The position numbers were made by a program, and so were the translations under genes. From Deefgea salmonis (lineage in GTDB: Bacteria > Pseudomonadota > Gammaproteobacteria > Burkholderiales > Chitinibacteraceae): DNA of 64,000 nt. Below the pieces are notes generated by a model. The model was not told the origin of the DNA. It made no database searches and worked only from the letters and a program-made list of their open reading frames with translations. Location: NCBI RefSeq assembly GCF_020531905.1, contig NZ_JAJAWG010000002.1, forward strand, positions 186,001 to 250,000, given 5' to 3'. Below, piece by piece: positions 16,376-46,050 of the stretch (positions are counted from its first letter, which is position 1; every line of letters starts with the position of its first letter).

Positions 16376-16828
16376 TAGCTTGTATGCATTCTGTATGGAT
16401 GATATTCATTTTGTTGATCGATGCAAATAATCGAATTGGCGATATCTATTTTGGGTCAATGGGTTAGCGAATATGACTAACTATTTTCAGGACTGAGCGC
16501 TGCGGGTTGATACGACTAAAAACGACGAATTTAAGCCCAAAATCAGCAAGATTTATACGAGCCACAGATTGATTTGTTGTGAAAGCACTGTGCAAGTTAA
16601 CGTAAATTTTAATGTTCAATGGCGCTGAAGGTAAGCTTGTAGCACAACATAAATAAGCTTGAAGAAATATTAGACATAATAAATTACTAAATAAGCACGA
16701 CTTTATTTAATTACACAGTAATTAATGACGGTGGTATAGTCATAGGTTGACTTGAAAGCAAGTAATCTAATCGTAATAATTTTGTGTTGATAATGTATCT
16801 GGCGCTCTATTTTTGGAATAAACCGGTA
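16376..16828. other. Intergenic region upstream of the exopolysaccharide operon
   Basis: About 450 AT-rich bases without a supported gene. The promoter of the eps operon must lie here. A TTGACT hexamer occurs at about 16747-16752, but no well-spaced TATAAT-like box follows. I found no GG-N10-GC sigma-54 motif with correct spacing. Confidence 0.5.
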
Positions 16829-18004
16829 ATGTTGAAAAAGAATTTGTTGCTATTGAGTGTACTGGCCATCGGGAATACACAAGCTGCTTCTGACCCTGAG
16901 GATACGGTCAAATTATTTACAAATATTGCTTATATTTATGACTCAAACGTATTTCGGCTATCGGACACGCAACAAAATAATTCAACACGTCAACACCAGC
17001 AAAAAAGTGACTCAAGTTTTACCGTTGGCGTCGGGGGACGGCTTGATCTGCCTGTGAGTCGGCAAAATTTCTATGCAACGGCTGATTTTTCACAGGCGAA
17101 TTATTTGGTTTTTGATGAGCTCAATGGCCCTGCTTGGGACGTGGGCCTAGGCTGGAATTGGGTCGTGGGCAATCAATGGAATGGCAATTTATCCGTATCA
17201 TCGAGCAGTCAATTGTCCTCGTTTGACGACGTACGTGTAGCCGTCGTTGATACCGTCAAAACCAACCGGGCCAATTGGAATGGCAACTGGCGGTTATTGA
17301 GCAATTGGGCTTTAGTTGCGAACGCATCGTATACCGAAGAAAACCATGATGTAAGAAAGTATCAAAATGCGAATGACCGACAATTTGGCGGTGGCTTGCG
17401 GTATATCTCAGATCGAGGATTCGCTCTGACCTTGCTACACAACTGGTCTAAATACAATTATGCAGAGCCCTTATTTTTTATCCCCGCTAATTTGCGCGGC
17501 TATTCAGATCAAAATACAAGTTTGGGGCTGAATTGGCCAGTATCCGATAAATTTAATGCCAATTTAACGGCCGGATATAGTCAATGGAAATCACAATTTA
17601 ATGGCACTAAAAATAAAAAACCAACCGCAAATATTGATTTAATGTGGGCTTTAACAGAAAAAACAACTTTAAAAACAGGTGCCGGACAAAATTTTGAATC
17701 ATTTGGAAGCAATGTGATTGGCCGTGATTTGGAACGAACTGCATATTTATCTGCGAATTGGGATTTCGCAGATAAATCAAAACTGGGCGCACGATATAAC
17801 TATCGGCAGTTAAAAATAGAAACATCTATTGGTATTGTGACGCAAGATTCTGTTTATGACACTTTTCGAGTGTCCTACGATTATCAAGTGTTGCGCAGCA
17901 TGATGATTCAATCTTATGTGCAATTTGAATTAAGAAATGAAAAAATTAACCAGTTTGATTATAACGACGAGCAAGTTGGTGTGTCGTTAAAATACAATTT
18001 CTGA
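16829..18004 (+). CDS. epsL: EpsL, exosortase-B-associated outer-membrane polysaccharide protein
   Basis: The 391-residue protein has a signal peptide (MLKKNLLLLSVLAIGNTQA). It is then made of alternating amphipathic strands such as YATADFSQANYLVF and LGARYNYRQLKI, ending in an aromatic residue (SLKYNF), as beta-barrel outer-membrane proteins do. Sequence style, length and position match EpsL of XrtB-type exopolysaccharide loci, a putative outer-membrane export component. I prefer the ATG at 16829 because an upstream ATG at 16784 would add 15 residues before the signal peptide. It is the first gene of the 25-kb operon. Confidence 0.8.
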   Translation: MLKKNLLLLSVLAIGNTQAASDPEDTVKLFTNIAYIYDSNVFRLSDTQQNNSTRQHQQKSDSSFTVGVGGRLDLPVSRQNFYATADFSQANYLVFDELNGPAWDVGLGWNWVVGNQWNGNLSVSSSSQLSSFDDVRVAVVDTVKTNRANWNGNWRLLSNWALVANASYTEENHDVRKYQNANDRQFGGGLRYISDRGFALTLLHNWSKYNYAEPLFFIPANLRGYSDQNTSLGLNWPVSDKFNANLTAGYSQWKSQFNGTKNKKPTANIDLMWALTEKTTLKTGAGQNFESFGSNVIGRDLERTAYLSANWDFADKSKLGARYNYRQLKIETSIGIVTQDSVYDTFRVSYDYQVLRSMMIQSYVQFELRNEKINQFDYNDEQVGVSLKYNF

Positions 18005-18032: not shown

Positions 18033-19505
18033 TTGCATCAAGATGTTCCTGAAAAAAATCTATTAAAGCCGGTTCAGAGTGGCGATCAAACTTTACAGGC
18101 ACCCAGCTTGTTAGGTGATCGTTTTCGCGAGTTTAGTAATTCGTCGCCAGTCATTGGTTTTTTTAAGCTTTGCTTAGATCCATTTATCGTTGTGGCTACG
18201 CTTTATGCGCTCGCTATACCTTTTGAAATTGCAATTGATGGCGTTGAATTTGTATTCGGCGTGTTAGCTTTTTTGCTTACGGCAATTTTGCTAGATGGTA
18301 TATTTTTATTTGTTCCTGGTTATTCTAGACAATTGTTAGGCTTATGCCGTTTTTCGCTTGAATGGGGGTGTGTATTATTAAGCTTGTTTTTTATCGGGCA
18401 AGTATCCGGATTTAGCACTTATATGTACCCACCTTATTATCTAACATGGGCAGTTGTAGCGCCTCTAGTTTTGATATTAACGCATTTTCTATTTAGATTG
18501 TTTGTACTGCACCCAGTTCAAAATAATGTTAAAAAAATACTGATTATTGGCGCGAATAAGCCGGGCCAAATGCTGGCAAAAAATATTCAACAGCAATCAT
18601 TTCTTAAAATGGAATTCCTAGGTTTTTTTGAGGATAGAGATGCTTCAAGATTAGATGGCATTAATTCAGAAGAGATCATTGGCGATCTGAGCGTATTTCC
18701 AGAATATATTTGTGAAAATACAGTGCATCAAATTTATATTACATTACCAATGACGGCGCAGCCGCGGGTGATGGAATTGCTTGATTATTTAAAAGATAGT
18801 ACCGCATCGATTTATTTTATTCCGGATTTGTTTGTTTTTGATTTGATTAATGCTAGGTTTGATAATGTCGCTGGTTTACCGGTGGTGGCTATTTGTGAAA
18901 GTCCTTTTCTAGGGCTTAACGGCTTAGTAAAGAGGATTACAGATATTGTACTGTCGTTGCTGATTTTGCTGTTGATTTGGCCGGTTCTGTTGGTCGTCGC
19001 TATTGCAGTCAAACTTACCTCTGCAGGACCTATCTTTTTTAAACAAAAGCGTTATGGTGAAGATGGTCAGAGTGTCTTGGTCTATAAGTTTCGCTCGATG
19101 ACCGTGATGGAAGATGGCGATCAAGTGATTCAAGCTAAAAAAAACGATATGCGACTTACACCGATCGGTAGATTTATTCGTAGAACATCACTGGATGAAC
19201 TGCCTCAATTTATTAATGTATTACAGGGAAAAATGAGTATTGTTGGTCCAAGACCACATGCGAATGCCCATAACGAGCAATACAGAAAATTAATTAAAGG
19301 TTACATGATTCGTCATAAAGTGAAGCCGGGCATTACTGGCTGGGCGCAAGTGAATGGTTTTCGGGGGGAAACCGATACTTTAGAAAAGATGGAAGGCCGA
19401 ATTTTATACGATTTAGAATATTTAAGAAATTGGTCTGTCTGGCTTGATTTAAAGATTATTTGGCGGACGGCGACTGGCATGTTCCGAGACAAAAATGCTT
19501 TTTGA
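18033..19505 (+). CDS. epsB: EpsB, undecaprenyl-phosphate glucose phosphotransferase
   Basis: The 490-residue polyprenyl glycosylphosphotransferase has N-terminal membrane helices, then a CoA-binding-like domain (ILIIGANKPGQMLAKNIQ). A further helix (LSLLILLLIWPVLLVVAIAVKL) leads to the C-terminal bacterial sugar transferase domain. Catalytic-domain landmarks are VYKFRSM, TSLDELPQFINVLQGKMSIVGPRPH and KPGITGWAQVNGFRG. It transfers a hexose-1-phosphate to undecaprenyl phosphate and begins each repeat unit. The start is a TTG at 18033 with AGGA upstream, so initiation may be weak. Confidence 0.9.
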   Translation: MHQDVPEKNLLKPVQSGDQTLQAPSLLGDRFREFSNSSPVIGFFKLCLDPFIVVATLYALAIPFEIAIDGVEFVFGVLAFLLTAILLDGIFLFVPGYSRQLLGLCRFSLEWGCVLLSLFFIGQVSGFSTYMYPPYYLTWAVVAPLVLILTHFLFRLFVLHPVQNNVKKILIIGANKPGQMLAKNIQQQSFLKMEFLGFFEDRDASRLDGINSEEIIGDLSVFPEYICENTVHQIYITLPMTAQPRVMELLDYLKDSTASIYFIPDLFVFDLINARFDNVAGLPVVAICESPFLGLNGLVKRITDIVLSLLILLLIWPVLLVVAIAVKLTSAGPIFFKQKRYGEDGQSVLVYKFRSMTVMEDGDQVIQAKKNDMRLTPIGRFIRRTSLDELPQFINVLQGKMSIVGPRPHANAHNEQYRKLIKGYMIRHKVKPGITGWAQVNGFRGETDTLEKMEGRILYDLEYLRNWSVWLDLKIIWRTATGMFRDKNAF

Positions 19506-19536: not shown

Positions 19537-20436
19537 ATGAAAAAATTAAGCACAGTAGTCCTTGCGCTTTCAACGCTATTTTTACTCACGGCATGTAACG
19601 ATAAAGAAGAAAAGAAATCACCTAGCCAAGTCCTCGCCAAAGTGAATGATGCTGAGATTACTGTACACCAACTAAATTTTGTATTAGGCAAAATTCCACA
19701 AGCGACTGCTGAACAAAAACAACAAGTATTAGATCAACTGATTGACCAAGAATTACTGCTCAATAAAGCCAGCGAATTAAAGCTGGACCGTGAACCAAAT
19801 ATTGTTCAAGCGATTGAAGCGGCTAAACGCCAAATTTTAGCGCAAGCCGCCGCAGAGCGTGTGATGGGTAAACCAGCGGAACCAAGCAAAGCGGCAGTTG
19901 ATGATTTTTATGCAAAAAATTCAGGCCTATTCGCGGATAGAAAAAACTATGAATTTGTAATGTTTTTATTGGACAAGGCTAAGTTAAATGATGCAATTAT
20001 TGCTCAGCTAGATACTGCTGTAACGCCGATGAAAGTAAAAGCCATCTTAGATGCCGCCAATATTCCATTTGAAATCAATGAAGGCCGGCGCGCAGCAGAG
20101 CAACTACCAATGCAAATGCTACCTAAATTTGTCGCAATGAAGCAAGGCGATATTTTGTCGATGAATGAAGGTGACAAAATAATGCTTTTGCAATTAAAAG
20201 ATAGCCAAGCAGCGCCTGTCACGCCGGTTGAGGCAGAGCCATTAATTAAGCGTTATTTAAGCACTAATGCCGCACAAGAAAGCGCAAAAACCAAACTTAA
20301 AGCTTTACGAGCTGCGGCAAAAATTGAGTACTTACAAAAATTTGCTTCCGCTCCTGTGGCGGCTCCTGCTACCGGTGCAATGAATGCCTCGGCAGTCGAT
20401 GACAGTCTTAAAGCTGGATTAAAAGGATTGAAATAA
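19537..20436 (+). CDS. epsD: EpsD-type peptidyl-prolyl isomerase lipoprotein
   Basis: The 299-residue lipoprotein has a lipobox LTAC (Cys20). It is followed by a SurA-N-like region (VLAKVNDAEITVHQLNFVL, VLDQLIDQELLLNKASEL) and a weak parvulin-like remainder. It matches EpsD of exosortase-linked polysaccharide clusters, thought to assist folding of export components in the periplasm. The parvulin active-site pattern is poorly kept, so a chaperone role is likelier than catalysis. Its stop overlaps the epsE start as TAATG. Confidence 0.82.
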   Translation: MKKLSTVVLALSTLFLLTACNDKEEKKSPSQVLAKVNDAEITVHQLNFVLGKIPQATAEQKQQVLDQLIDQELLLNKASELKLDREPNIVQAIEAAKRQILAQAAAERVMGKPAEPSKAAVDDFYAKNSGLFADRKNYEFVMFLLDKAKLNDAIIAQLDTAVTPMKVKAILDAANIPFEINEGRRAAEQLPMQMLPKFVAMKQGDILSMNEGDKIMLLQLKDSQAAPVTPVEAEPLIKRYLSTNAAQESAKTKLKALRAAAKIEYLQKFASAPVAAPATGAMNASAVDDSLKAGLKGLK

Positions 20437-21227
20437 TGTTTAAAAAATTGGGCATGCTGCTGTGTTTTGGCTTGCTAAGTCTGCTGACTGCGATTGCTTG
20501 GGCCCAACCGAAAGGTGACTATGTTTTGGGCTCAGGCGATGTGGTGAAAATCCAAGTCTATGACCACCCCGATTTAACCACTGAGGTTCAGCTCAATAAT
20601 GAAGGGGCTTTAGCTTTTCCCTTAATTGGTGTGGTGAAACTAGAGGGTTTAGATTACACGCAAGCTGAGACATTAATTGCTAAAAAATTAATTGAAGGTA
20701 ATTTCATTAAAAAGCCCAATGTCAATGTTTTAATCGTGCAATACCGCAGCCAAAGGGTGGCGGTATTGGGCGAAGTGAATAAACCGGGCCGATATGCGCT
20801 CGATAGTGCCACTAATATCATTGATTTACTGGCGATCGCGGGCGGTATAAGTCCAAATGGCGGTGACAAGGTGGTGATCTTGCGTGGCGAGCAACGCATT
20901 GAGTATGAGCTGAGCAAATTGACGCAATTAGCTAATCCTGAAAAACGCCACATTCAAATTATGAATAGCGATACGGTGTATATACCGAGAGCACAGCAAT
21001 TTTATGTGTATGGCGAGGTTAACCGCCCCGGCGCTTTTCGCTTAGAGCCGAAAATGACCTTGATGCAAGCGCTCTCACTCGCTGGTGGATTTAATCCACG
21101 TGCGTCGCATAGCAGCCTGCAAATTCATCGTGTTACAGCAGAAGGACAAATAGAAAAACTTTCGGCAAAACTTTCCGACTTCATTCGTGAAGGCGATACC
21201 GTTTATGTGCAAGAAAGCTGGTTTTAA
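20436..21227 (+). CDS. epsE: EpsE, Wza-type polysaccharide export protein
   Basis: The 263-residue periplasmic/outer-membrane protein has a signal peptide ending AIAWA. The polysaccharide export domain follows (YVLGSGDVVKIQVYDHPDLT, GALAFPLIGVVKLEG). Two SLBB modules come next (VAVLGEVNKPGRYALD, FYVYGEVNRPGAFRLE). It builds the periplasm-spanning and outer-membrane ring for export. The protein is short compared with Wza, as usual for the EpsE type, so EpsL may provide the outer-membrane part. Confidence 0.9.
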   Translation: MFKKLGMLLCFGLLSLLTAIAWAQPKGDYVLGSGDVVKIQVYDHPDLTTEVQLNNEGALAFPLIGVVKLEGLDYTQAETLIAKKLIEGNFIKKPNVNVLIVQYRSQRVAVLGEVNKPGRYALDSATNIIDLLAIAGGISPNGGDKVVILRGEQRIEYELSKLTQLANPEKRHIQIMNSDTVYIPRAQQFYVYGEVNRPGAFRLEPKMTLMQALSLAGGFNPRASHSSLQIHRVTAEGQIEKLSAKLSDFIREGDTVYVQESWF

Positions 21228-21256: not shown

Positions 21257-22630
21257 ATGACTTTTGAACAATTATTAAATATCCTGCGCGCTAGAAAATG
21301 GATCGCAATTTCGGTGTTCTTTGTCGTAATACTGACAACGTTGGTTGTCAGTGTATTGCTCCCTAAGCAATACACCGCAGAAGCTACATTAGCGCTGGAT
21401 GTAAAAGCGGCCGATCCAGTGACTGGGCAACAGATCGTTGGCTATATGGCTCCCAGTTATATGGCGACCCAAGTCGAGATGATTTCTAGTCAAAATACGG
21501 CACTGAAGGTGGTGGATACTTTAGGTCTTGCTCAGTTGCCCGAGGCGCAAGCGCAATTTCAAGCAGCCACCAATGGCAGAGGTGATATTCGCAATTGGTT
21601 TGCCGAGTCATTGCTAAAAGGTTTGACAGTAAAGCCCAGCCGAGAAAGTAATATCATTAATTTGGAATACACCTCGACTGACCCTAAATTTGCGGCAGCA
21701 TTGGCGAATAATTTTGCACAAGCGTATATCCGCACCACGATTGATATTAAAACAGACGCTGCGCAGCAAAATAATGTGTTTTTCCAAGAGCAGCTTAAAT
21801 CATTACAAAGTAATTTAGAAAAAGCGCAAAATAAACTTTCTGAATATCAGCAAACCCATGGCATTGTGGGTTCAGACGAGCGTTTAGATGTTGAAACTCA
21901 ACGCCTCAATGAGTTATCTAGTCAAGTGGTCGGGGCGCAATCGCAAACCTTTGACGCACAATCACGTGCTCGTGGCGGTAATGTTGCACCGGATGTATTA
22001 AACAATCCATTGATTCAGCAGTTGAAAGGCCAGCTGGCGGTGCAAGAGGCCAAATACAATCAACTGTCGGAAAAAAATGGTGCCAATCATCCGCATAACC
22101 AACAAGCAATGGCTGAGCTCAATGCAACGCGCAGCCAGCTTAATGAACTGATGGGGCAATACGCCGGTGGCCTCAATAGTGCTGCAGGCAATTCGGCCTC
22201 ACGCCAAGCCTCACTCAATACTGCATTGCAAACACAAAAAGAAAAAGTATTAGACTTAAAATCGCAGCGCGCCGCAATCGATGTGTTGCTGCGCAATGTG
22301 GATAGTGCTCAGCGCAGCTACGACCAAGCATTGCAACGCTTTAGTCAAACCATGCTCGAAAGCCGCTCTGATCAAAGTAATATTTCTATTATCAAATCAG
22401 CGCCTGAGCCAATGAAACATTCCAGCCCAAAAACGATGCTGAACTTAATTTTGGCGATTATTGTCGGCGGATTATTGGCGATTGGATTTGCAATGTTAGC
22501 TGAATTAGCTGATCGGCGTATTCGGTCTAAAGATGATATCGAATCAATGTTAGGGCTGACAGTTTTAGCTGATTTATTGCCTCCCAAAAAGAAACGTCGA
22601 TTTGGTTTTAAAGTAGGAGCCCCAGCATGA
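21257..22630 (+). CDS. epsF: EpsF, Wzz-like chain-length determinant
   Basis: The 457-residue inner-membrane protein has a Wzz domain with a first transmembrane helix (ISVFFVVILTTLVVSVLL). A long periplasmic coiled-coil (residues about 170-360) and a GNVR-type end (KHSSPKTMLNLILAIIVGG) lead to the second helix. This is the polysaccharide co-polymerase that works with a cytoplasmic BY-kinase partner, here EpsG. The gene overlaps epsG by 4 bases (ATGA). The short cytoplasmic tail (KKKRRFGFKVGAPA) carries no kinase. Confidence 0.9.
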   Translation: MTFEQLLNILRARKWIAISVFFVVILTTLVVSVLLPKQYTAEATLALDVKAADPVTGQQIVGYMAPSYMATQVEMISSQNTALKVVDTLGLAQLPEAQAQFQAATNGRGDIRNWFAESLLKGLTVKPSRESNIINLEYTSTDPKFAAALANNFAQAYIRTTIDIKTDAAQQNNVFFQEQLKSLQSNLEKAQNKLSEYQQTHGIVGSDERLDVETQRLNELSSQVVGAQSQTFDAQSRARGGNVAPDVLNNPLIQQLKGQLAVQEAKYNQLSEKNGANHPHNQQAMAELNATRSQLNELMGQYAGGLNSAAGNSASRQASLNTALQTQKEKVLDLKSQRAAIDVLLRNVDSAQRSYDQALQRFSQTMLESRSDQSNISIIKSAPEPMKHSSPKTMLNLILAIIVGGLLAIGFAMLAELADRRIRSKDDIESMLGLTVLADLLPPKKKRRFGFKVGAPA

Positions 22631-23493
22631 ATGCTATCCCTGATCCAATCGCCAATGAAGTGATCAAAGGCAATATCGGCCAGCAATTATTGGTTAATGG
22701 CAAAATTAATGCGCAACAAGCTGAAAAGATTTTAAGACTACAGAAAGAAACTGGTGGACGTTTTGGGGAAGCCGCCATCAAGCTGGGATTTGTTACCGAA
22801 AATGACATCCAAGATGTATTGGCGCAGCAATTTGAATATGCCTATCTCGTCGCAGGGCAAAGTGCCGTCGATCAAAAGTTGGTTGCGGCTTATTCACCAT
22901 TTGATTCGCGAGTTGAAGCTTTACGTAGCTTACGCAGCCAAATTTTATTACGTTGGGTAGAAGGCGGAAATAAATCGGTGGCATTGGCCTCCTACGATGC
23001 CGATAACACCTGCGATATCTTGGCCGCCAATTTAGCGATTGTATTCTCGCAATTGGGTGAACACACTTTGTTGGTTGACGCTAATTTACGCAATGCCGTG
23101 CAGCACCAACTCTTTGCGGTAGAAAACCGTAAAGGCCTGAGTGATATCTTAGTCGGTCGTAGTGGTTTAGAGGCAGTACAACGCATTAGTGAGTTTAGGG
23201 ATTTATCGATCTTAACGGCTGGTACGACTGCGCCTAATCCACAAGAACTACTCTCAAGAGACGTATTTAGTAATATCGTTGCTGAGTTAGCACAAGCCTA
23301 TGACGTAGTGATCTATTGTACTAGCGCATTAAAAGATGCCGCAGATGCGCAATTAGTTGCTTCACGTGTTAAAGGTACGATCTTGGTGGCCAGCCGCAAT
23401 CAAACACCGGCAAAAGGGCTAGAATCCGCTAAATTACAATTGCAATCAGCAAGTGCGACTTTGCTCGGTTGTGTTCTATCTCAGGAAGAATGA
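22627..23493 (+). CDS. epsG: EpsG-like tyrosine kinase homologue with degenerate nucleotide site
   Basis: The 288-residue protein has a GspE-N/MshEN-like N-terminal module (LLVNGKINAQQAEKILRLQK...RFGEAAIKLGFV, residues 20-75) and a BY-kinase P-loop fold. The second fold keeps scaffold segments such as AANLAIVFSQLGEHTLLV and NPQELLSRDVF. The expected Walker A (GxGKS/T-type) is replaced by SYDADNTCD at 122-130. Walker A' reads LLVDANLR (148-155, Asn for the second Asp), and Walker B reads VVIYCTSA (227-234) without its Asp. A C-terminal tyrosine cluster is also absent. It is most likely a catalytically inactive partner of EpsF. A sequencing error is unlikely to explain three separate motif losses in an intact frame. 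Confidence 0.85.
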   Translation: MNAIPDPIANEVIKGNIGQQLLVNGKINAQQAEKILRLQKETGGRFGEAAIKLGFVTENDIQDVLAQQFEYAYLVAGQSAVDQKLVAAYSPFDSRVEALRSLRSQILLRWVEGGNKSVALASYDADNTCDILAANLAIVFSQLGEHTLLVDANLRNAVQHQLFAVENRKGLSDILVGRSGLEAVQRISEFRDLSILTAGTTAPNPQELLSRDVFSNIVAELAQAYDVVIYCTSALKDAADAQLVASRVKGTILVASRNQTPAKGLESAKLQLQSASATLLGCVLSQEE

Positions 23494-24374
23494 TGATGGA
23501 AAATAGCAATACAGTCATTGAAAATGGCCAATTTAATTTGGCCATTTTTTTAAAACAGAATTTTCTAATATTGCTAGGTTTTTTGGTATTGTCAATTTCA
23601 ACCATTATTAACCTAGTCAATAGCACCTGGAAAAGTGATGATCAAGCCCATGGGCCAATTATTCTGGCCATTGTTATTTGGTTGTTTTGGCAAGTAAAAG
23701 ATAAAATTGCGAAAATAAATACAACTCCAAATCCTATTCTTGGATTTATGTTCGTTATAAGTGCATTATTCATCTATATACTAGGTCGTTCTCAATCGAT
23801 TTTGATTTTTGAAATTGGTGCATTTATTCCATTAACTTGTGGCTTATTACTGGTTAGTAAGGGTTGGCGCGCGCTATCAATCGCTTGGTTTGCTATCGTA
23901 TTTATGTTGTTTTTGATTCCTTTACCCGGTTCGATTGTGGATGCTTTAACAGGGGCATTAAAAGGGCAAGTATCTCATATTGCCGAAGTGTTATTATATT
24001 CTGCAGGCTATCCCGTAGCGCGTAGCGGTGTATTAATTACTATTGGACACTATCAATTACTCGTTGCTGATGCCTGTTCGGGCATGCATTCTATGTTTAG
24101 CCTATTGGCGGTGGGCTCGTTGTATGTGTATATCACCAATCACAGTAGCAAAATTCGCAATACTTTATTGATTCTTTCTATTATCCCAATTGCTTTTGCT
24201 GCCAATATTATCCGTGTAATGACGTTAATATTAGTAACCTACCATTTTGGTGATGCAGCAGGGCAGGGCTTTATTCATGATTTTGCGGGAATGGCATTGT
24301 TTGCGATTGCATTAATAGGGATGTTTACTTTAGATAAAATTCTTGGCGTTTTTTTAAAAGAGCGAGGTGAATAA
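23490..24374 (+). CDS. xrtB: Exosortase B
   Basis: The polytopic inner-membrane protein has 294 residues and about eight helices. The exosortase/archaeosortase catalytic set is visible: Cys196 in LLVADACSGMHSM, Arg242 in FAANIIRVM and His263 in QGFIHDFAGM. The eps genes around it and EpsI directly downstream identify the XrtB subtype. It should cleave PEP-CTERM tails at the inner membrane and transfer the proteins for export. Three ATGs lie in a row (23490, 23493, 23496) behind AGGA. The first overlaps the epsG stop as ATGA. Substrates in this window are at 42123 and 43072. Confidence 0.93.
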   Translation: MMMENSNTVIENGQFNLAIFLKQNFLILLGFLVLSISTIINLVNSTWKSDDQAHGPIILAIVIWLFWQVKDKIAKINTTPNPILGFMFVISALFIYILGRSQSILIFEIGAFIPLTCGLLLVSKGWRALSIAWFAIVFMLFLIPLPGSIVDALTGALKGQVSHIAEVLLYSAGYPVARSGVLITIGHYQLLVADACSGMHSMFSLLAVGSLYVYITNHSSKIRNTLLILSIIPIAFAANIIRVMTLILVTYHFGDAAGQGFIHDFAGMALFAIALIGMFTLDKILGVFLKERGE

Positions 24375-25059
24375 ATTGAAAGTTAAAATGACTCTTCAAG
24401 CATTACTTTGCGGATTAATGATTTTCTCTTTTTTTATTGTTGATTATATAAAGCCGAATAAAAAAATGTCGGAGGAAAGAAGTGTTTTATTAGTAGATAC
24501 TCTACCCGATACGATTGGCGCTTGGCGTGTTGATAAGCAGCAAGTGAATGTGATTGAAAACCAAGCAATCCAAGACACAATAAAAAAAATATACTCTGAT
24601 GTGGCGAGCAAAACATATGTAAATACAGCTGGACAAAGGGTTATGGTTAGCTTGGCCTATGTTGCTGATCAAAGTGATGCAATGGGTGTGCATTTACCAG
24701 AGGTTTGTTATCCCGCGCAAGGATTTACTGTAGATAAAATTGATTCAATTAAACTCAATGTAGGTGATAAAGAATTGCCTGTAAATAGAATTTATGCTGT
24801 AAGTGGCGAGCGCCATGAACCTATTTTATATTGGACGGTAACTGGTAATTATTTAACCTTGCCTGGTGATTCTACTAAATTAATACAATTAAAATATGCT
24901 TTGTCGAGAACAGTGCCAGATGGTCTTCTTGTACGTATTTCAACTATTGGAGATGATCGCAATCTGGAATATAAAACGCAAGAATTATTTGTTACTGATC
25001 TGTATAAAAAACTAACTGTAAAATCAAGGGAAAGGCTATTTGGAGTTACCAGTGAATAG
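24367..25059 (+). CDS. epsI: EpsI, exosortase-associated protein
   Basis: The 230-residue protein has one N-terminal membrane anchor (ALLCGLMIFSFFIVDYI). A periplasmic EpsI-family domain follows, with LPDTIGAWRVD, HLPEVCYPAQGFTVD and ILYWTVTGNY. The family always travels with exosortases and its role is unresolved (proposed partner or processing factor). The start is a GTG at 24367, overlapping the xrtB end by 8 bases. The conserved Cys lies in LPEVCYP. Confidence 0.88.
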   Translation: MNKLKVKMTLQALLCGLMIFSFFIVDYIKPNKKMSEERSVLLVDTLPDTIGAWRVDKQQVNVIENQAIQDTIKKIYSDVASKTYVNTAGQRVMVSLAYVADQSDAMGVHLPEVCYPAQGFTVDKIDSIKLNVGDKELPVNRIYAVSGERHEPILYWTVTGNYLTLPGDSTKLIQLKYALSRTVPDGLLVRISTIGDDRNLEYKTQELFVTDLYKKLTVKSRERLFGVTSE

Positions 25060-30780: not shown

Positions 30781-30797
30781 ATTAATAAGGAATGAAT

Positions 30798-33011
30798 GTG
30801 AAAAATATTATTGCGTTGTTTTTTGTATTTATTCTTCCTGCTAGCTTTGCAGATTGGATTGAGACAACTGATCCTCTAGTTGTTACTGCATTTCCTGTTC
30901 ATCAAGCTGAAATTAAGCAAAATCCACCACAATTTCGTTGGCCACAGCCTGCTCGTATTCCTACTGGCTATGAGGTTCAATTGCTAAGTGGTCGTGGTAT
31001 TAATTATTCATTTAATGTGATGAGGAATTGGCTGTTACCTAGTCAGTTATTCCCTGCGGATACGTATTCTTGGCGAGTTCGTACGAAAGATGCGGGTGCC
31101 GTTTGGAGCGATTGGCGTCAATTTACTTTAGCGGCTAATGCAGATGTGTTTTTAGTGCCAGAAAATGCGCTACTTTTGAGTCGGTTGAAAGCAAAGTCTC
31201 GTCCGAAGTCATTGCCAATTCATTCTGCAGGCGTCGACGATTGGCGCTTAAAAATAAATACTGAGCGCACTAATTCTGTATCGAGTTTAAAAAATAATGT
31301 TGATTTACAAATACAAAGTCCGATTTTAAAAGATACAGATATACCACTAATTGCGAGCAGCGTAGATAGTTCTGCTTGGGCGGCATCGCAAGCTAATATT
31401 CGTAACCGTGCAGAAGCCGAATCACGTCAGTTACGCAATAGTGCATTACTCTGGCAAATTACACGCAATCCTAATTATTTTTCCGAGGCGATTCGCCGAG
31501 GGAATGCTTTAGTCGCGCTCGATTTAAAAGGGTCGACGAGTTATAAAAATCAAGATCAAGCAACGCGAGCTATCGCATGGGCACTGGTACAAAGTATTGA
31601 TTTACTAGCGAGTGATTTACCAGCAGTAACGCGTATCGCTTGGTTGAACAACGCCAAGGCCCGAACTTGGGAAATCTATCGTGATTTAGCCAATTACAAT
31701 TGGCGCTTGGATCAGACGCCATTTGATTCGCATGGTTCTACCAATCTGGGCTATGTGGCCGCGATTTCGACCTTATTGGTGGGTGATGCGCCCGAGGCCG
31801 ATATTTGGTTTCGCGATACATTCCATGCGTATGCACAATATATAAATCCATTTGGTGGTGAAGAGGGGGGATTTGCTAATGGCTCCGCTTATGCTGAATA
31901 TTCTGCCGATTTTTATTTACAGCTATGGGATCCCATCGCGATTGCTTCGGGTATTAGTTTTTATGACAAACCGTGGTCAAAAGGGATGCTGTCGTACTTT
32001 GCTTATTTTCTACCGCCAGGCTCGCCTAGCCATGTTTTTGGGGATGGGGCCGAAACTAAGCCTTATTTCCCGTTAATGAAAGCCTACGCGAGCCGATTTA
32101 ATACACCCTTAGCGGCTTGGTATTATCGAAATTTAATTGGCGATGAAAGTGCTAGTACTTTGCTTTCAGCACCATTGCCCTTACCGATTGAAAGTGCTGC
32201 AACCGCTTTGCCTAGTATTAATTCGTACTATTTTCCAACGATAGGCTGGGCAGCAATGCACAGCGAATTGGCAGATCGAAATCGCACGTCTTTGTATTTT
32301 AAATCCAGTCCATATGGCAGTTTTAATCACAGCCACGGCGATCAAAATACGTTTACTTTAGTGGATCAAGGCCGGCCGATCTTGGTCGATAGTGGTATTT
32401 ATGATTGGTATGGATCAGCCCATTGGCATCAATGGTATCGACATACTAAGGCCCATAACGGGATCACGTTTGATGGTGGCCAAGGGCAAATTACCCATGA
32501 TACTAATGCGAGTACATTGGCAAAAGGCCAAATTACTCAATATCAATTTGCAGACAAGATCGATATGGTCGAAGGCGATGCTATGCAAGCCTATGGCGGG
32601 CAATTAAGCCAAGCATTGCGCCGAATTTGGTATTTACGTGATCAAAATTTAATCGTGGTTTGGGATAAGCTGAAATCCCCCGTGGCGCGACAATTTGAAT
32701 GGAATCTGCATGCGAATGAGGCATTTGATCTTTCGCTACCAAAGCAATACGTTTTGCCAAATCAAGGTAAACCGATTTGTATTAATACGGTTTGGCCAGA
32801 ATTAACGAATGCTGTTCAAACGAGTGGCTACGATGTTCCGCCTGAAATGAAGTCAATTCCCCCTGTTTGGCATCTGCGGGTATCTTCGAGTTTAATGCTT
32901 GAACAACAATTTGTTCATATCATTAATCTAAATTGCTTGATAAAGCCAAGCTATAGTTTTGATTTTGACCAGTCAAAATTGATACTTGATAGTAAAGAAA
33001 TTAACTTCTAA
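30798..33011 (+). CDS. Secreted heparinase II/III-family polysaccharide lyase
   Basis: The protein of about 737 residues has a signal peptide (MKNIIALFFVFILPASFA). A fibronectin-like/DUF4962 N-terminal section (FRWPQPARIPTGYEVQL) and an (alpha/alpha) toroid (residues about 190-430) follow. The C-terminal heparinase II/III beta-domain carries FNHSHGDQNTFTLVDQGRP and AHNGITFDGG. The His in NHSHGDQN and nearby Tyr residues match the catalytic region of uronate-specific lyases. It would trim or release the exopolysaccharide in the periplasm. The GTG at 30798 is preferred: AAGGA lies 6 bases upstream, whereas it abuts the ATG at 30792. A 160-base gap with no gene follows. Confidence 0.8.
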   Translation: MKNIIALFFVFILPASFADWIETTDPLVVTAFPVHQAEIKQNPPQFRWPQPARIPTGYEVQLLSGRGINYSFNVMRNWLLPSQLFPADTYSWRVRTKDAGAVWSDWRQFTLAANADVFLVPENALLLSRLKAKSRPKSLPIHSAGVDDWRLKINTERTNSVSSLKNNVDLQIQSPILKDTDIPLIASSVDSSAWAASQANIRNRAEAESRQLRNSALLWQITRNPNYFSEAIRRGNALVALDLKGSTSYKNQDQATRAIAWALVQSIDLLASDLPAVTRIAWLNNAKARTWEIYRDLANYNWRLDQTPFDSHGSTNLGYVAAISTLLVGDAPEADIWFRDTFHAYAQYINPFGGEEGGFANGSAYAEYSADFYLQLWDPIAIASGISFYDKPWSKGMLSYFAYFLPPGSPSHVFGDGAETKPYFPLMKAYASRFNTPLAAWYYRNLIGDESASTLLSAPLPLPIESAATALPSINSYYFPTIGWAAMHSELADRNRTSLYFKSSPYGSFNHSHGDQNTFTLVDQGRPILVDSGIYDWYGSAHWHQWYRHTKAHNGITFDGGQGQITHDTNASTLAKGQITQYQFADKIDMVEGDAMQAYGGQLSQALRRIWYLRDQNLIVVWDKLKSPVARQFEWNLHANEAFDLSLPKQYVLPNQGKPICINTVWPELTNAVQTSGYDVPPEMKSIPPVWHLRVSSSLMLEQQFVHIINLNCLIKPSYSFDFDQSKLILDSKEINF

Positions 33012-33180
33012 CTCAGATGGCCAAGGTAATGCAGTCGTTGTAACTGATATGCAGAGCGTCATCGCAAAGTCAAATGCTAGAAATAATTGATTTTATAGTC
33101 TGCATAGGTGTTGGGTTAAAAAGATCGATCAGGATAAGATTAATCAACTCAATTCATAGTCAATTTAATAAGTGATTTTT

Positions 33181-34506
33181 ATGCACGTTAAAAAAGAATT
33201 AAAGTATTTTTTTCGATACCTTGTTCGAGATGGCTTTATTGCAGATTTTGTTTTGCGTAAGGTTTTGGGGTCGCAGCCTACGGTGAAAAGCTCGTCTGAT
33301 TATCAATTTAAAATGTTGAATAAAAGTCTAGTTCGTGCTGTTGAAACTTTACCTGCTTATACTCAGGTTGATTTAAAAGAGGGTAATCACGGCTCTTTGG
33401 CGGATTTAATTAGTAAATTTCAAATTGTCACCAAGGCGGATCTACTAGAAAAACCGACTATGTATTATCCCTATCAGGCTAAGCCGAAACGATGGCATTC
33501 AGTAGGGAAGTCCAGTGGTACCACTGGATCGCCACTTGTGATATTTCGCGATCTATATTCTGTGCTTATTGAGAATTACTTTGTAAAACGTCATTGGCAA
33601 GAGTGTGGTTTTGTTCTTGGGCAGAGATGTGCTTCATTACGCGGTGATCATATTGTTGAATTAAATAGTAGTACACCCCCGTTTTGGTTTTTTAATCGAT
33701 ATAATAATCAGTTGTTAATTTCTTCACGTCATTTGGTTGCGGCATGTATAGATGCAATTATAAATGAGTTAAGGGATTTTTCTCCTCAAATGTTGCAGGC
33801 TTATCCTTCTACTGCATTTACTTTGGCTAAATATTTGGAAGAGAAAAATCAATATTTATCTATTCCAATCATATTTACCAGTTCGGAGCCATTGTATTTA
33901 CATCAAAGAGCACTTATTGAATCTCGCTTGCAGGGTAAATCTTATGATATGTACGGTATGGCCGAGCGTGTTGCTTTTGTAACTGAATGTGAACATGGTG
34001 AAATGCATGTTAATAGCGAATACTCTTTGGTTGAAATTGTCGATGATAATGATATTGCAACAGATGATTATGGTTATGTAGTTGGTACTACTTTCCATAA
34101 TAAAGCAATGCCTTTGATTCGTTATAAATTATCCGATAGAACTAAGTGGAAAAAAATAGCCTGTCAATGTGGTAGTGTTTTTCCTGTTGTTGAGCCTATT
34201 GTCGGAAAATACGAAGATCAGATATTTGGTGGAAGTGGCGCGCCAATTAGTCCATCGGTCTTAACTTTTGCGTTTAAAGGTGTTAAAAATATTTTGAAAT
34301 CACAGGTGGCTCAAATAACATCTGCTATTTGGGAAGTCAGGATTGTTCCAGATTGTCGATATTCTGATGTAGATGGGCAATTGCTTATACGTAATATCGC
34401 TGAATTAGTTGATGCTCACATTATAATCAATATTATTCTCAGAGATGACTTGCCAAATACACTGTCTGGCAAGTTTAGGTGGGTTGTGAACGAGATGAAG
34501 AATTAA
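33181..34506 (+). CDS. CapK-like adenylate-forming enzyme (phenylacetate-CoA-ligase fold), copy 1
   Basis: The 441-residue protein has the AMP-binding loop SVGKSSGTTGSPLVIFRD. It also has a second adenylation motif, YDMYGMAERVAFVTECEHGE, and MPLIRYKLSDRTKW near the hinge. It is related to PaaK and to CapK proteins of capsule loci. The expected chemistry is carboxylate adenylation followed by transfer to a thiol or amine. A carrier protein is not encoded nearby, so the acceptor is unknown. The start could also be the GTG at 33172. It lies immediately before a GT4 gene. A decorating role on the polysaccharide is inferred. Confidence 0.78.
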   Translation: MHVKKELKYFFRYLVRDGFIADFVLRKVLGSQPTVKSSSDYQFKMLNKSLVRAVETLPAYTQVDLKEGNHGSLADLISKFQIVTKADLLEKPTMYYPYQAKPKRWHSVGKSSGTTGSPLVIFRDLYSVLIENYFVKRHWQECGFVLGQRCASLRGDHIVELNSSTPPFWFFNRYNNQLLISSRHLVAACIDAIINELRDFSPQMLQAYPSTAFTLAKYLEEKNQYLSIPIIFTSSEPLYLHQRALIESRLQGKSYDMYGMAERVAFVTECEHGEMHVNSEYSLVEIVDDNDIATDDYGYVVGTTFHNKAMPLIRYKLSDRTKWKKIACQCGSVFPVVEPIVGKYEDQIFGGSGAPISPSVLTFAFKGVKNILKSQVAQITSAIWEVRIVPDCRYSDVDGQLLIRNIAELVDAHIIINIILRDDLPNTLSGKFRWVVNEMKN

Positions 34507-34507
34507 T

Positions 34508-35569
34508 ATGAAAAAAATAATTATGGTTGGTACTGATCTACATGGGCAAGGGGGAATTGCTTCGGTAGTGTGTACCTATCAAAAAGCAGGGGTTTTTGAA
34601 AAAAATAATATTCAATATATTGCATCGCATGTAGCTGGTAGCGCGCTGAAAAAATGCTTGGTATTTTTATGTGCATGGCTGAAATTTTTTGCATATTGCT
34701 GCCTTGGGAAGGTCAGTATATTGCATTTAAAAATGGCATCTTATGGTAGTTTTATGCGCAAGTATGCCTTTTTTGTGGTGGCTAGAGTTTTTGGGATTAA
34801 AACCGTAGTTCATTTGCATGGTGGTGAATTCGACTTATTTTATCGAGAGCGTAGCAATTCAATTCAAAAAATGATGATTCGTGACATCCTTAGTCATGCC
34901 GATTTTTTTGTGGCACTGTCTAATCAGTGGCAATTAAAATTACATAAAATGTGTGCAAGCGCTAATGTGGTCACTATCTACAATCCGATTATTGTTCCTA
35001 AGCAAATTTCTAAACAGCGCGCTGCTAATTTATTGATATTCCTTGGGAATGTTTCCGAATCTAAGGGTACATTTGATTTGATTCGTGCCATGCCTGATGT
35101 AATTAAATTAAATCCCTCCGTTCAATTAAAAATTGGTGGCACCGGTGAAATTGAAACTGCTCGTCAATTGGCGGTCGATTTAAAAGTCGATGCGCACGTT
35201 GAGTTCTTGGGCTGGGTGGTTGGCGAGGACAAAGAGCGGCTGCTTAATTCAGCGACCTTATTATTGCTACCTTCGTATAACGAAGGTTTGCCGATGTCTA
35301 TTTTAGAAGCAATGGCCCATGGCTTGCCGGTGATTGCTAGCGATGTGGGTGGGATTCCCGAGGCACTTGCTTGCTGCGTTGCCGATTGCATTGTTAAGCC
35401 AGGCGATGTGATTGATTTGGCCAATAAAATTAATCATTTATTAGCCGATGATGCTTTGCGTGGGCAAATTGCACGGAAATTGCAGCAAACCGTGGCGGAG
35501 AAATTTGATGTTGAGGTTGTTGCTAATGAATTGACACAACTCTACAACCGCTTGTTGGAAGTGCAGTGA
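34508..35569 (+). CDS. GT4 family glycosyltransferase
   Basis: The 353-residue GT-B protein has an N-terminal DLHGQGGIASVVCTYQKAG loop, KTVVHLHGGEFD, FLGNVSESKGTFDLIRAM, VEFLGWVVGEDKERLL and YNEGLPMSILEAMAHGLPVIASDVGGIPE. The last is the strong E-x7-E region of GT4. It should add a sugar with retention. The first half of the gene is noticeably richer in A/T than the second half, which reads like a mosaic. Its stop overlaps the next ATG (TGATG). Confidence 0.88.
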   Translation: MKKIIMVGTDLHGQGGIASVVCTYQKAGVFEKNNIQYIASHVAGSALKKCLVFLCAWLKFFAYCCLGKVSILHLKMASYGSFMRKYAFFVVARVFGIKTVVHLHGGEFDLFYRERSNSIQKMMIRDILSHADFFVALSNQWQLKLHKMCASANVVTIYNPIIVPKQISKQRAANLLIFLGNVSESKGTFDLIRAMPDVIKLNPSVQLKIGGTGEIETARQLAVDLKVDAHVEFLGWVVGEDKERLLNSATLLLLPSYNEGLPMSILEAMAHGLPVIASDVGGIPEALACCVADCIVKPGDVIDLANKINHLLADDALRGQIARKLQQTVAEKFDVEVVANELTQLYNRLLEVQ

Positions 35570-37554
35570 TGGCTACTTTAGATTGGTATATGAATCGATT
35601 GCGTTGCATGAGTTTGCCAGAGGTGCTGCATCGTGTTGCAGCGCATTCTCGTAAATTATTGCAAGAGAAGGGATTACTGCTGGCTCATTCAAAGGCACCC
35701 GAACGCGTTGTGGCAACTGCGCCCTGGATTCAAAAGCCTGAGCATCTAAGTTCTGATGAATGTGCTGCAATTTTGAATTCAGCAGCGCATTTGTTGGCTG
35801 GGCGGTGGGATGTCTTTGGGCAACGATTACCATTGGGTATGCCACCTGATTGGCAAGTTGATCCTTTAACAGGTATTCGTGCTCCAGTCAGCTTCGGTTT
35901 GCGCTTAGCAATTAGTCAACGTAACGTCGTTGGGGATATCAAATATTTGTGGGAGCCAGCCCGTCATCTTGAATTAGTAACTTTGGCGCAGGCTTGGGTT
36001 TTAACACAAGATTTACGCTACATTTCGGCGCTGCAGGACTGCTTCGCATCTTGGCTAAAAGATGCTCCCTATCCGAATGGGCCGCATTGGTCGAGCAGCC
36101 TTGAAACAGCAATTCGCTTGATTAATTGGTCGATTATTTGGCAATTAGTCGGGCAAGATGATTCTGCTTTGTGGGCTGGTGAAGTGGGTCATAAACTCAA
36201 ATCGGATTGGTTGGCGCATATATATCAATCCTTATTTTTTATTCGGCATCATTTATCTCAACATTCATCTGCCAATAATCATTTAATTGGTGAGTTGTCT
36301 GGCTTGCTGGTGGCTTGCATGACTTGGCCTTTCTGGGCCGAATGCAGCCAATGGCGAGATTTCGCGAAGGACAACCTGCTAAAGCAAGCACTGTTGCAAA
36401 ACGGCGTTGATGGCGTCAATCGCGAACAAGCCATGTCTTACCAGCAATTTGTGTTTGAATTTTTGTTCTGGGCTGGGCGCTCTGTAGAGGCTACGCCGTA
36501 TGCATTCTCTGCGGACTATTGGGAGCGCTTGTATGCAATGGGCGAGTGGGTTGCTGCTGTGCGAGATGTGGCTGGCAATGTTCCTAGCATTGGTGATGCG
36601 GATGATGGCTATGTCACGCAGTTAGCGCGCGATTCAGCGACATCACCGTTTGATCATTTATTGCAAGTCTGTGGTGAAATTTTTGGGTGTGCGCCGTGGC
36701 AGACATTAGGTTGTCATTCAGCAGCGGCAAAATGGTGGCTGTCTTTTCCTTTATCAAAACCTAAACGCAATGCCAATCTGCTTGCCGTACCGCGCTTGTT
36801 TGCTGAGGGTGGGTATGCAGTGATTGGCTCTGACTGGGGTATGCCATCAGAGGTTAAGTTAACACTGGATTCGGGGCCATTAGGCTATCTGGGTATCGCT
36901 GCTCATGGGCATGCTGATGCCTTAGCTATATTACTTTCTGTTGGCGGCATGCCGGTGCTGGTTGATTCAGGTACGTACAGTTATCACGCTGAAGGCGGAT
37001 GGCGTGATTATTTTCGCGGTACTGCGGCACACAATACGGTCTGTATTAACGGGCAAGATCAGTCGGTTAGTGGCGGTAAATTTATGTGGGTAAAGCAGGC
37101 CAAATCGGTACTGCATGATTTTACATTTGGTGATGGCTTGACGACTTGGTGTGCGTCTCAGGATGGTTATCAGCGATTGGAAAGCAAAGTGGCTCATCTG
37201 CGACGTGTTGAATACTCACATGCCGAGCAGATTGTGCGGGTGTTTGATGAAATTGATGCCGCTTCGCCTTGCTCGATTTCTATCAATTGGCAGCATGCAC
37301 CAGATCTTGAGGTCGTTTGCGCTGATGCGGGATGGGCGATTCGTTCGCCAAAATTTAACATTGTGGCCACTGTGTCTGGTGCTGATTTTTCTTTGATTGC
37401 TCAGCGTGGTGCATTGAGCCCAATTGCGGGATGGGTTTCTGAGCGTTATGGAGAAAAGCAGCCTGCGACTCGTTTAGATTGTCGTATTGCAAACCATGTA
37501 GGTAAATCAATCTGGATTACAGAATTTAAAATTGAATTTTTAGAAATTGGTTAA
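35569..37554 (+). CDS. Heparinase II/III-family protein of the polysaccharide locus
   Basis: The 661-residue protein has an N-terminal region WYMNRLRCMSLPEVLHRV typical of locus-linked heparinase-like proteins. An alpha-toroid with HHLSQHSSANNHLIGEL follows, then the beta-domain AAHGHADALAILLSVGGMPVLVDSGTY and GTAAHNTVCINGQDQS. No signal peptide is visible. This differs from the lyase at 30798 and suggests cytoplasmic or cryptic export. It is a candidate lyase for uronate-containing chains, in line with WecC downstream. Confidence 0.82.
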   Translation: MATLDWYMNRLRCMSLPEVLHRVAAHSRKLLQEKGLLLAHSKAPERVVATAPWIQKPEHLSSDECAAILNSAAHLLAGRWDVFGQRLPLGMPPDWQVDPLTGIRAPVSFGLRLAISQRNVVGDIKYLWEPARHLELVTLAQAWVLTQDLRYISALQDCFASWLKDAPYPNGPHWSSSLETAIRLINWSIIWQLVGQDDSALWAGEVGHKLKSDWLAHIYQSLFFIRHHLSQHSSANNHLIGELSGLLVACMTWPFWAECSQWRDFAKDNLLKQALLQNGVDGVNREQAMSYQQFVFEFLFWAGRSVEATPYAFSADYWERLYAMGEWVAAVRDVAGNVPSIGDADDGYVTQLARDSATSPFDHLLQVCGEIFGCAPWQTLGCHSAAAKWWLSFPLSKPKRNANLLAVPRLFAEGGYAVIGSDWGMPSEVKLTLDSGPLGYLGIAAHGHADALAILLSVGGMPVLVDSGTYSYHAEGGWRDYFRGTAAHNTVCINGQDQSVSGGKFMWVKQAKSVLHDFTFGDGLTTWCASQDGYQRLESKVAHLRRVEYSHAEQIVRVFDEIDAASPCSISINWQHAPDLEVVCADAGWAIRSPKFNIVATVSGADFSLIAQRGALSPIAGWVSERYGEKQPATRLDCRIANHVGKSIWITEFKIEFLEIG

Positions 37555-40771: not shown

Positions 40772-42061
40772 ATGTTGGCCAAAGTGTTTAAAAATATTTA
40801 TAACGAAGCTCGGTGCTATATTCCAGATCGCCTACTTTATGCAAAAGAATATTTTTCGATTAAGTCTATTTTGGCCTCTAATAATAAAATTCAGATCAGC
40901 GCCTTGGTAGAGGCCCAGTTGAAGCACGTTTTGTTAGTTTGTTTAAGAGATGTCAATTTCTATAAAAACAATGTTGCTATTTCATTGGCGGATATTGAAC
41001 ACAACGATCCTTTTGTGATGCTAAAATCATTTCCAATAATTTCTAAAAGTGATTTGATTACGCATAAAAATGATTTTGTGAATAAACAGTATACAAAATC
41101 ATTTCTATCTAAATCATCATCAAGTGGTTCGTCTGGGTTTGGTGTTGAAGTTTATCGCAATAAAAAAGCGGCAGATATTGAAAAAGCTTTCTTTTCGCAC
41201 TACTGGGGTAAGTTTGGATTTAATGTCGAGTCTTCTAGGACGGTTCGTATTGGTCAAGATGCTTTAAGATCCAGCAGTAAAAAACCGACCTTCATGCAAG
41301 GTAGTCGGTTAATGCTATCTCCAACGCATATTTCAGAAAATAATATAGATGAGATTGCCATGAGTATTTTAAAGTTTAAACCTGACTTTATTCATGGTTA
41401 TCCAAGTTGTATATATCAACTTGCTTGTTTACTCGACTCAATTAACGTAAAGATTAAAGTCAAAGCTGTTTTGTTGGCATCAGAACCGGTGTTAGATTCT
41501 CAATTGAAAATGATGAAAGATGTTTATATAGGCGAAATATCTGCAAATTATGGTTTGTCAGAAAGAACTAATTTGGCATTTTCAACGTATGAAGAAAATG
41601 ATGGTATGAGTTATACATTCGATGAGTTGTATAGCGTGAATGAATTTATTGATGATGAGTTAGGTACTCAAATTATTGGTACGTCATTGTGGAATGAGGT
41701 TATGCCCTTAATTCGTTATCAAACGCAGGATTATGTAAAAATAACATCTGACAATAAAATACGTATAGATGGTAGACAGCAGCATTATTTAATAGCTAAA
41801 AACGGATTAAAAATACCAAGCCTTATTGTTGACGATGTTCCTTGGCAATATATTAGCCAAATTCAGATTAAGCAACCCAAATCGGGCTGCATTATACTGT
41901 ATGTTGTATTAAAAATGGATGTACATATTGATGGCGCAATCGAATTCATTACGAACCGGCAGAAAGCACTTTGGGGTGAGTGGTTTGATGTTGAAATTGT
42001 CGTAAAAGAAAAGTTAGAGCGCACGCAAGCAGGAAAAATCAACTTGGTGATTTTCGATTGA
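40772..42061 (+). CDS. CapK-like adenylate-forming enzyme, copy 2
   Basis: The 429-residue protein has the AMP-binding loop region KSSSSGSSGFGVEVYRN, less canonical than the SSGTTGSP of copy 1. It continues with FIHGYPSCIYQLA, SANYGLSERTNLAF and MPLIRYQTQDYVKI. It belongs to the same PaaK/CapK fold as the protein at 33181 but is clearly diverged. The weak loop lacks the TTG step, so activity may be altered. It is the last gene of the plus-strand locus, closed by a terminator at 42081. An unusual pairing: two such enzymes in one polysaccharide locus suggest sequential activation or a two-step decoration. Confidence 0.75.
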   Translation: MLAKVFKNIYNEARCYIPDRLLYAKEYFSIKSILASNNKIQISALVEAQLKHVLLVCLRDVNFYKNNVAISLADIEHNDPFVMLKSFPIISKSDLITHKNDFVNKQYTKSFLSKSSSSGSSGFGVEVYRNKKAADIEKAFFSHYWGKFGFNVESSRTVRIGQDALRSSSKKPTFMQGSRLMLSPTHISENNIDEIAMSILKFKPDFIHGYPSCIYQLACLLDSINVKIKVKAVLLASEPVLDSQLKMMKDVYIGEISANYGLSERTNLAFSTYEENDGMSYTFDELYSVNEFIDDELGTQIIGTSLWNEVMPLIRYQTQDYVKITSDNKIRIDGRQQHYLIAKNGLKIPSLIVDDVPWQYISQIQIKQPKSGCIILYVVLKMDVHIDGAIEFITNRQKALWGEWFDVEIVVKEKLERTQAGKINLVIFD

Positions 42062-45797: not shown

Positions 45798-46050
45798 AGT
45801 CTTATTGCTTCCTGTGGGTTGAACAACATGAATGCTTTACAAATGGGGGCATCGCAGCTTGCTTCAAGTGAGTTTGGCGCTTAATTCTCCGTGGCTTACG
45901 AAATCCACCAGAAAGCATGACAATTGAAACGAGAAACAAAATACACCTTTGTCATAAAAGACGCAGCTTGTGCGGTGCAGCAAGGCATTTTAAAGCTGAC
46001 ATGAAGTGCGGTGTTATAGTGTGATCAGATCAATTGGCGAGGGTGTTGCG

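Follow-up and report, generated by a model that had tools for sequence, protein, structure and literature searches.

Two kinds of BY-kinase system provide the closest described parallels to the locus considered here. In Wzc and CapB, a cycle of tyrosine phosphorylation is described as making and breaking the octamer (PMC12004946), and the ring interface of BY-kinases has been assigned to an ExxRxxR motif (PMC3795738). EcpK from Myxococcus xanthus and HfsB from Caulobacter crescentus, on the other hand, are stand-alone BY pseudokinases of bipartite PCP-2 systems, and have been proposed in 2025 to act as phosphorylation-independent scaffolds for PCP-2 proteins that lack a kinase domain (PMC12004946).

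The stretch of DNA analysed here (hereafter, the window) comprises 64,000 nucleotides from Deefgea salmonis and carries a polysaccharide locus with a gene for a protein of the EpsG type. A preliminary description made from the letters of the window proposed that this EpsG has lost all three of its P-loop motifs, that selection retains it as a partner of the neighbouring EpsF, and that a conserved pseudokinase would represent a different regulatory mode. The motifs are indeed gone and an EpsF-like gene adjoins EpsG in 164 of 178 EpsG loci, but a partner of this kind is already in print for EcpK and HfsB (PMC12004946), so that the mode as such is not new.

Genomic context of EpsG

The gene for EpsG is located between those for EpsF and exosortase B (XrtB), within the set of genes listed in Table 1. 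EpsF, the presumed partner of EpsG, is a protein of 457 amino acids in which residues 1–440 are covered by the TIGR03017 match, and the end of its gene overlaps the start of the EpsG gene by 4 bases. The locus thus supplies the neighbouring kinase-less PCP-2 protein that characterizes the EcpK and HfsB systems. The 178 EpsG loci used for comparison were reduced to 176 rows by dropping two identical ones, and to 167 distinct rows by dropping those identical in the core; counts over 167 or 176 rows include some close relatives. Because 80 of the loci are the nearest 80 of at least 563, the sample leans towards the protein of the window.

Table 1. Genes of the Eps locus and sequence features of EpsG, with positions in the window
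Feature	Position	Strand	Basis
EpsL-like outer-membrane protein	16784..18004	+	TIGR03014, 200.6 bits, below cut-off 275
Undecaprenyl-phosphate glucose phosphotransferase (WcaJ-type sugar transferase)	18033..19505	+	TIGR03023, 510.7 bits versus 410.75
EpsD-type peptidyl-prolyl isomerase	19537..20436	+	TIGR02925, 194.5 bits versus 108.9
EpsE-like polysaccharide export protein	20436..21227	+	TIGR03028, 260.7 bits, just below cut-off 262.65; Pfam Poly_export and SLBB
EpsF, PCP-2 chain-length protein without kinase domain, presumed EpsG partner	21257..22630	+	TIGR03017, 549.6 bits versus 422.75
EpsG-type BY pseudokinase, 288 aa	22627..23493	+	Translation; TIGR03029; AF2 model; Foldseek
MshEN motif 1, residues 16–39 (NIGQQLLVNGKINAQQAEKILRLQ), first position Asn, not Arg	22672..22743	+	NF053729; family profile
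MshEN motif 2, residues 45–68 (RFGEAAIKLGFVTENDIQDVLAQQ), 5 residues past motif 1	22759..22830	+	Fits published relaxed pattern
ExxRxxR ring-interface motif, residues 97–103 (EALRSLR)	22915..22935	+	Alignment; role from PMC3795738
Walker A position, residues 122–130, now SYDADNTCD	22990..23016	+	Translation; alignments
Walker A', residues 148–155 (LLVDANLR), first Asp (D151) kept, second replaced by Asn	23068..23091	+	Translation; alignments
Walker B, residues 227–234 (VVIYCTSA), Asp at 231 replaced by Cys	23305..23328	+	Translation; alignments
Exosortase B (XrtB)	23469..24374	+	TIGR03113, 330.8 bits versus 275
EpsI, B-type	24367..25059	+	NF045609, 247.8 bits versus 220

A profile search of the genome returned no BY-kinase above the TIGR01007 cut-off besides EpsG itself. 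Seven further matches to this profile score 20–53 bits, where the cut-off is 108; the one that was inspected corresponds to a ParA-like gene of the window. An arrangement in which EpsG is partnered with an active BY-kinase encoded elsewhere was accordingly rejected, and heteromers that would include an active kinase are improbable in this genome for the same reason. A cognate phosphatase of the LMWPc family within the locus was rejected as well, as both of the LMWPc matches found in the genome lie on other contigs.

Two-domain organization of EpsG and the state of its kinase motifs

The frame of EpsG is intact, as the preliminary description had it, and encodes 288 residues without an internal stop. 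The protein narrowly passes the NCBIfam EpsG profile TIGR03029 (314.9 bits versus a cut-off of 313.8) and clears the BY-kinase subfamily profile TIGR01007 (132.1 versus 108.05), while its match to Pfam AAA_31 remains below the cut-off (15.6 bits versus 27, E = 0.016). The namesake of TIGR03029 is EpsG of the methanolan locus of Methylobacillus sp. 12S, which presumably belongs to the same family and type of locus as the Deefgea protein.

An AlphaFold2 model of EpsG was calculated from a 34-row alignment (pLDDT 87.1, pTM 0.76). The best matches returned by Foldseek for this model were CapAB (E 8e-17) and the octameric kinase domain of Wzc. Superposed on Wzc (PDB code: 3la6), the model aligns over 203–208 columns at 1.5–1.8 Å with several of the chains, and over more columns at 7–8.5 Å with others. 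The EpsG family profile finds CapB and Wzc through profile positions of approximately 69–77 to 277, and its N-terminal part separately finds MshE (5htl, E 3e-8) and PilF (6f8l, E 3e-11). Given these matches, EpsG is a two-domain protein, composed of an MshEN-like head and a body with the BY-kinase fold.

The readings of the three nucleotide motifs given in the preliminary description all match the translation (Table 1). The Walker A position does not contain the GK[ST] of active BY-kinases, the DxD of Walker A' reads DAN, the Walker B Asp has become Cys231, and no Tyr follows residue 272 in the place of a Tyr-rich tail. The statement that all three motifs are lost holds for the catalytic motifs, but D151, the first of the two Asp residues in Walker A', persists, without exception in 167/167 distinct EpsG rows. 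The protein also retains the ExxRxxR motif together with the kinase fold; among the 167 distinct rows E97 is found in 166, R100 in 166 and R103 in 167.

In comparison to CapB and Wzc, EpsG thus has the fold and the ring motif in common with them and is missing the P-loop Lys, the second A' Asp, the Walker B Asp and the Tyr cluster. With EcpK and HfsB it shares the BY-kinase fold without Walker motifs or Tyr tail, apart from the one remaining A' Asp, as well as the separate kinase-less PCP-2 partner. The MshEN-like head and the exosortase B locus are, by contrast, features of EpsG, and the EcpK paper makes no mention of MshEN in its main text (PMC12004946). Judged from these motifs, a dead active site in Deefgea EpsG is well supported, and the protein may be free of nucleotide, as the preliminary description supposed. 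With dead motifs and no Tyr tail, EpsG should be unable to run a tyrosine phosphorylation cycle.

The MshEN-like head and c-di-GMP

The MshEN-like N terminus noticed in the preliminary description is borne out by the profile of the MshE-related c-di-GMP domain, NF053729, which EpsG passes with 49 bits versus 38 over residues 17–68. The consequence that such a head may provide a replacement input had not been drawn there. Similar to MshE and the GSPII-B domain of PilF, the head contains two 24-residue motifs with a 5-residue spacer, a length that is kept in 175 of 176 EpsG rows, and conserves Gly, Gln and hydrophobic contacts. It departs from these proteins in the missing first Arg and the Lys after Gly of motif 1, in a Phe for Leu in motif 2, and in its fusion to a BY-kinase fold. 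Motif 2 of Deefgea EpsG fits the published relaxed pattern and motif 1 does not, the misfit being, by reading, the Lys after Gly; over the 176 rows, the pattern is matched by motif 2 in 111 and by motif 1 in one. The first position of motif 1 is Asn in Deefgea and Ser in 92 of the 167 distinct rows, and residue 32, where MshE has a contact Leu, is Ala in Deefgea EpsG.

Twelve ligand positions, taken from the description of MshE (PMC5013675), are less variable in EpsG than the remainder of the domain, with a mean entropy of 0.81 versus 1.77 bits (rank test, p 0.001) calculated from the 112 rows under 80% identity. Four residues, G18, F46, G47 and Q68, are invariant in all 167 distinct rows, and R45 is present in 158. 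The genome has 33 GGDEF matches and only two matches to NF053729, EpsG among them. From the presence of the head, the low variability of its ligand positions, the invariant residues and this genomic complement, we infer that c-di-GMP is the probable input.

An alternative that we regard as less likely also makes EpsG a pseudokinase that partners EpsF, but one whose MshEN-like domain has lost the binding of c-di-GMP and serves purely as a protein contact or a stabilizer of the fold. The absent first Arg, the Ala at contact 32 and the failure of motif 1 to fit the pattern in 175 of the 176 rows would be accounted for in this manner. Non-binding relatives of MshEN have been described, namely PilF GSPII-A and XpsE (PMC12002112, PMC5013675), and PilF GSPII-A constructs were deprived of c-di-GMP binding by a Ser at the corresponding position of motif II (PMC12002112). 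Moreover, EcpK works without a known input of this type, and the paper that describes it names neither MshEN nor c-di-GMP in its main text (PMC12004946). The invariance of G18, F46, G47 and Q68, with R45 nearly so, is however the pattern of a ligand site that has been kept. PilF GSPII-B is reported to bind c-di-GMP tightly with Lys and Leu in place of the Arg residues at the motif starts (PMC11731258), and although Arg9 of MshE is among the residues involved in binding, changing the charged residues, Arg9 included, altered the affinity no more than fivefold, and perfect conservation of the motifs may not be required (PMC5013675). On balance, the sequence evidence makes c-di-GMP binding by the head of EpsG somewhat better than an even prospect.

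Extent of the motif loss in the EpsG family

The preliminary description suggested a comparison with relatives in the genus, and held that an intact Walker A in related strains would speak against it. All three nucleotide motifs are lost in EpsG of 7/7 Deefgea genomes, and an intact Walker A is found in 0/7. The loss is not, however, a peculiarity of the locus, as had been implied, nor is it peculiar to Deefgea, a notion that was dropped after alignments of relatives showed the same loss. Within a set of 61 genomes (that of the window and 60 relatives) there are 34 matches with both domains, and GK[ST] was absent from all of the first 30 aligned (0/30). For the full-length EpsG proteins of the window's family, the Chitinibacteraceae, GK[ST] occurs in 0/27; the Gly preceding the Lys position is gone in 25/27, the second A' Asp is replaced by Asn in 26/27, and 18/27 lack the Walker B Asp.

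A wider draw of 300 genomes from the order yielded 77 full-length EpsG proteins in 71 genomes, which are all of the two-domain rows among the 150 listed; two of the 77 are represented by the same locus from the 61-genome set, and L095 is cut short by the end of its contig. The Walker Lys position is occupied by Lys in only 10 of these proteins, by Arg in 32 and by other residues in 35, and in the 32 GR[ST] takes the place of GK[ST]. The triad is complete in 9/77 and wholly lost in 6/77, all six from the window's family. Of the proteins in the draw that score above the cut-off for what NCBI names "tyrosine kinase EpsG", Lys is kept in 1/54. An Amantichitinum protein present under two handles (L014 = L133) was scored as without GK[ST], its LKS lying one residue off and being alignable to GKS with a gap. 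The loss is family-wide in EpsG and graded, being specific to neither the locus nor the genus. Going by the frequencies, decay appears to have begun, widely, with the Lys and to have continued with the second A' Asp; the Gly and Walker B would have been the last to go, in Chitinibacteraceae and close relatives.

As controls, 40 kinase domains without an MshEN-like head were selected by hand from the 73 such rows listed for the same draw, most of them the best-scoring, with some stand-alone domains added. The Walker Lys is present in 35 of the 40 and replaced by Arg in two, Ser in two and Ala in one; three or more Tyr residues lie beyond the matched domain in 30/40. In EpsG, read from residue 272 to the stop codon or, for one row, to the end of its contig, there is no Tyr in 147/176 rows, one in 28 and two in one, so that a tail with three or more Tyr residues is found in 0/176, the Lys-bearing EpsG included. 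Set against these controls, the kinase site has decayed in EpsG in particular. In the 112 rows under 80% identity, the Lys column has an entropy of 2.81 bits versus a mean of 1.75 for the kinase domain; ranked by variability, it exceeds 220 of 289 columns, with 69 varying more. A tree requires four changes of Lys state inside EpsG, in which loss and regain are not told apart; 59 of its 137 inner branches are drawn open, and one control (L188) is placed inside EpsG, joined to another long row (L097).

These frequencies also bear on an improbable reading, according to which a rebuilt loop lets EpsG still bind ATP or a different nucleotide, with an activity that is weak or altered. The invariant first A' Asp, the kinase fold of the predicted model and the GR[ST] of the order draw are what such a protein might show. 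In the window's family, however, nearly all proteins have lost not just the Lys but also the preceding Gly, most have lost the Walker B Asp, and EpsG has no Tyr-rich tail to phosphorylate. As proteins of other EpsG branches in which the Walker Lys has become Arg may still bind nucleotide weakly, inactivity is firm only for EpsG of the Chitinibacteraceae.

The ten Lys-bearing EpsG proteins include L080, L084, L086, L087, L088, L090, L093, L094 and L096. An XrtB-like gene is absent from the flank of 9/10 of these loci versus 24/168 of the others, where the flank extends for about 1.5 kb and the ten derive from few branches. With tails that contain at most two Tyr residues, the Lys-bearing proteins may also not be ordinary autokinases. 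Three headless BY-kinase domains in frames of about 300–340 amino acids (L214, L217 and L218) have Ala or Ser for the Walker Lys (GDGAS, GEGST) and no Tyr afterwards, and are candidates for further pseudokinases.

Selection on EpsG

Comparison with three congeners gives dN/dS values for EpsG of 0.063, 0.053 and 0.053, similar to those for EpsF (0.061, 0.082 and 0.065); in comparisons with species further away, silent sites approach or exceed saturation. EpsG is under strong purifying selection, in agreement with the proposal that the gene is retained. A decaying gene or an error of sequencing or assembly, which the joint alteration of three motifs in one gene might bring to mind, is most improbable and was rejected on the open frame, these dN/dS values, the same state in all seven Deefgea genomes with graded states across the order, the confident AlphaFold2 model, and the intact KGGVGKST kept by the ParA-like gene of the same window (46006-46839).

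The lost P-loop of the Deefgea clade has a conserved core of its own. In 11/11 rows (L001–L011), it is replaced by SYD, five mostly variable residues and [DE][IL]LAANLA, corresponding to positions 22990-23034 of the window. The loop looks as if it had been recruited for another role.

A proposed phosphorylation-independent partner for EpsF

The EpsG sequence combines dead motifs, the absence of a Tyr tail, purifying selection, a kept ring motif and an MshEN-like domain, in a genome with no other BY-kinase above the cut-off. The reading that we favour, and consider rather probable, is that EpsG is a BY pseudokinase scaffold that partners EpsF, with the ring formed by binding and with c-di-GMP as the probable input through the head. 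EpsG would be the cytoplasmic partner of the kinase-less EpsF, for which normal use of ATP and phosphorylation should be impossible. Most likely it would act as a scaffold, joining EpsF in a ring by means of the ExxRxxR face and a hold on the cytoplasmic tail of EpsF. Whereas Wzc and CapB assemble and release in a cycle driven by tyrosine phosphorylation, that of EpsG would be set by binding, and the probable signal, c-di-GMP, would be sensed by the N-terminal MshEN-like domain. Binding to EpsF, ring formation, c-di-GMP binding and an effect on chain length are all steps that we infer for EpsG.

More tentatively, and with slightly less than an even chance in our estimation, the EpsG proteins of XrtB loci could be widespread c-di-GMP-gated BY pseudokinases, in which c-di-GMP at the fused MshEN domain replaces phosphorylation as the switch that opens and closes the EpsF ring, and so has a direct influence on chain length and export once synthesis is under way. 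If this were the case, the family named "tyrosine kinase EpsG" by NCBI would for the most part not be a kinase, c-di-GMP would become a concrete candidate for the driver of the phosphorylation-free co-polymerase cycle raised by EcpK and HfsB, and a c-di-GMP control point would be placed on a Wzx/Wzy-type co-polymerase.

Among the matches listed from a search of the open-access literature, none calls EpsG of an exosortase locus a pseudokinase or ties it by name to c-di-GMP, and none reports the family-wide motif loss or the combination of pseudokinase and MshEN. The closest prior print among them for a tie between EpsG and c-di-GMP is PMC5013675 (2016), in which an exopolysaccharide synthesis protein of Methylobacillus is given among the MshEN proteins; this protein is presumably EpsG. 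The pseudokinase partner mode and, for Methylobacillus, an exopolysaccharide synthesis protein with MshEN are thus known already, and what may be new is the combination of a pseudokinase with an MshEN-like head and its extent across the family.

Other features of the window

Several further genes of the window were noted by eye. The ParA-like ATPase gene is directly followed by a gene (46849-47760) whose product looks like a response regulator that ends in an ATPase of the histidine-kinase type. The polysaccharide cluster includes two mutually similar proteins resembling acyl-CoA ligases of the PaaK kind (33172-34506 and 40772-42061) and two large heparinase/alginate-lyase-like proteins (30792-33011 and 35566-37554).

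Over positions 22627-25059, comparison with the homologous loci L002, L003 and L004 reveals a rise in dS just after EpsG, from 0.19–0.26 in EpsG to 0.77–1.29 in XrtB, and EpsI is strongly diverged in L003 and L004, with a dN of about 0.7 versus the window. The jump in dS and the divergent EpsI together suggest that the downstream half of the Eps locus has been exchanged between strains.
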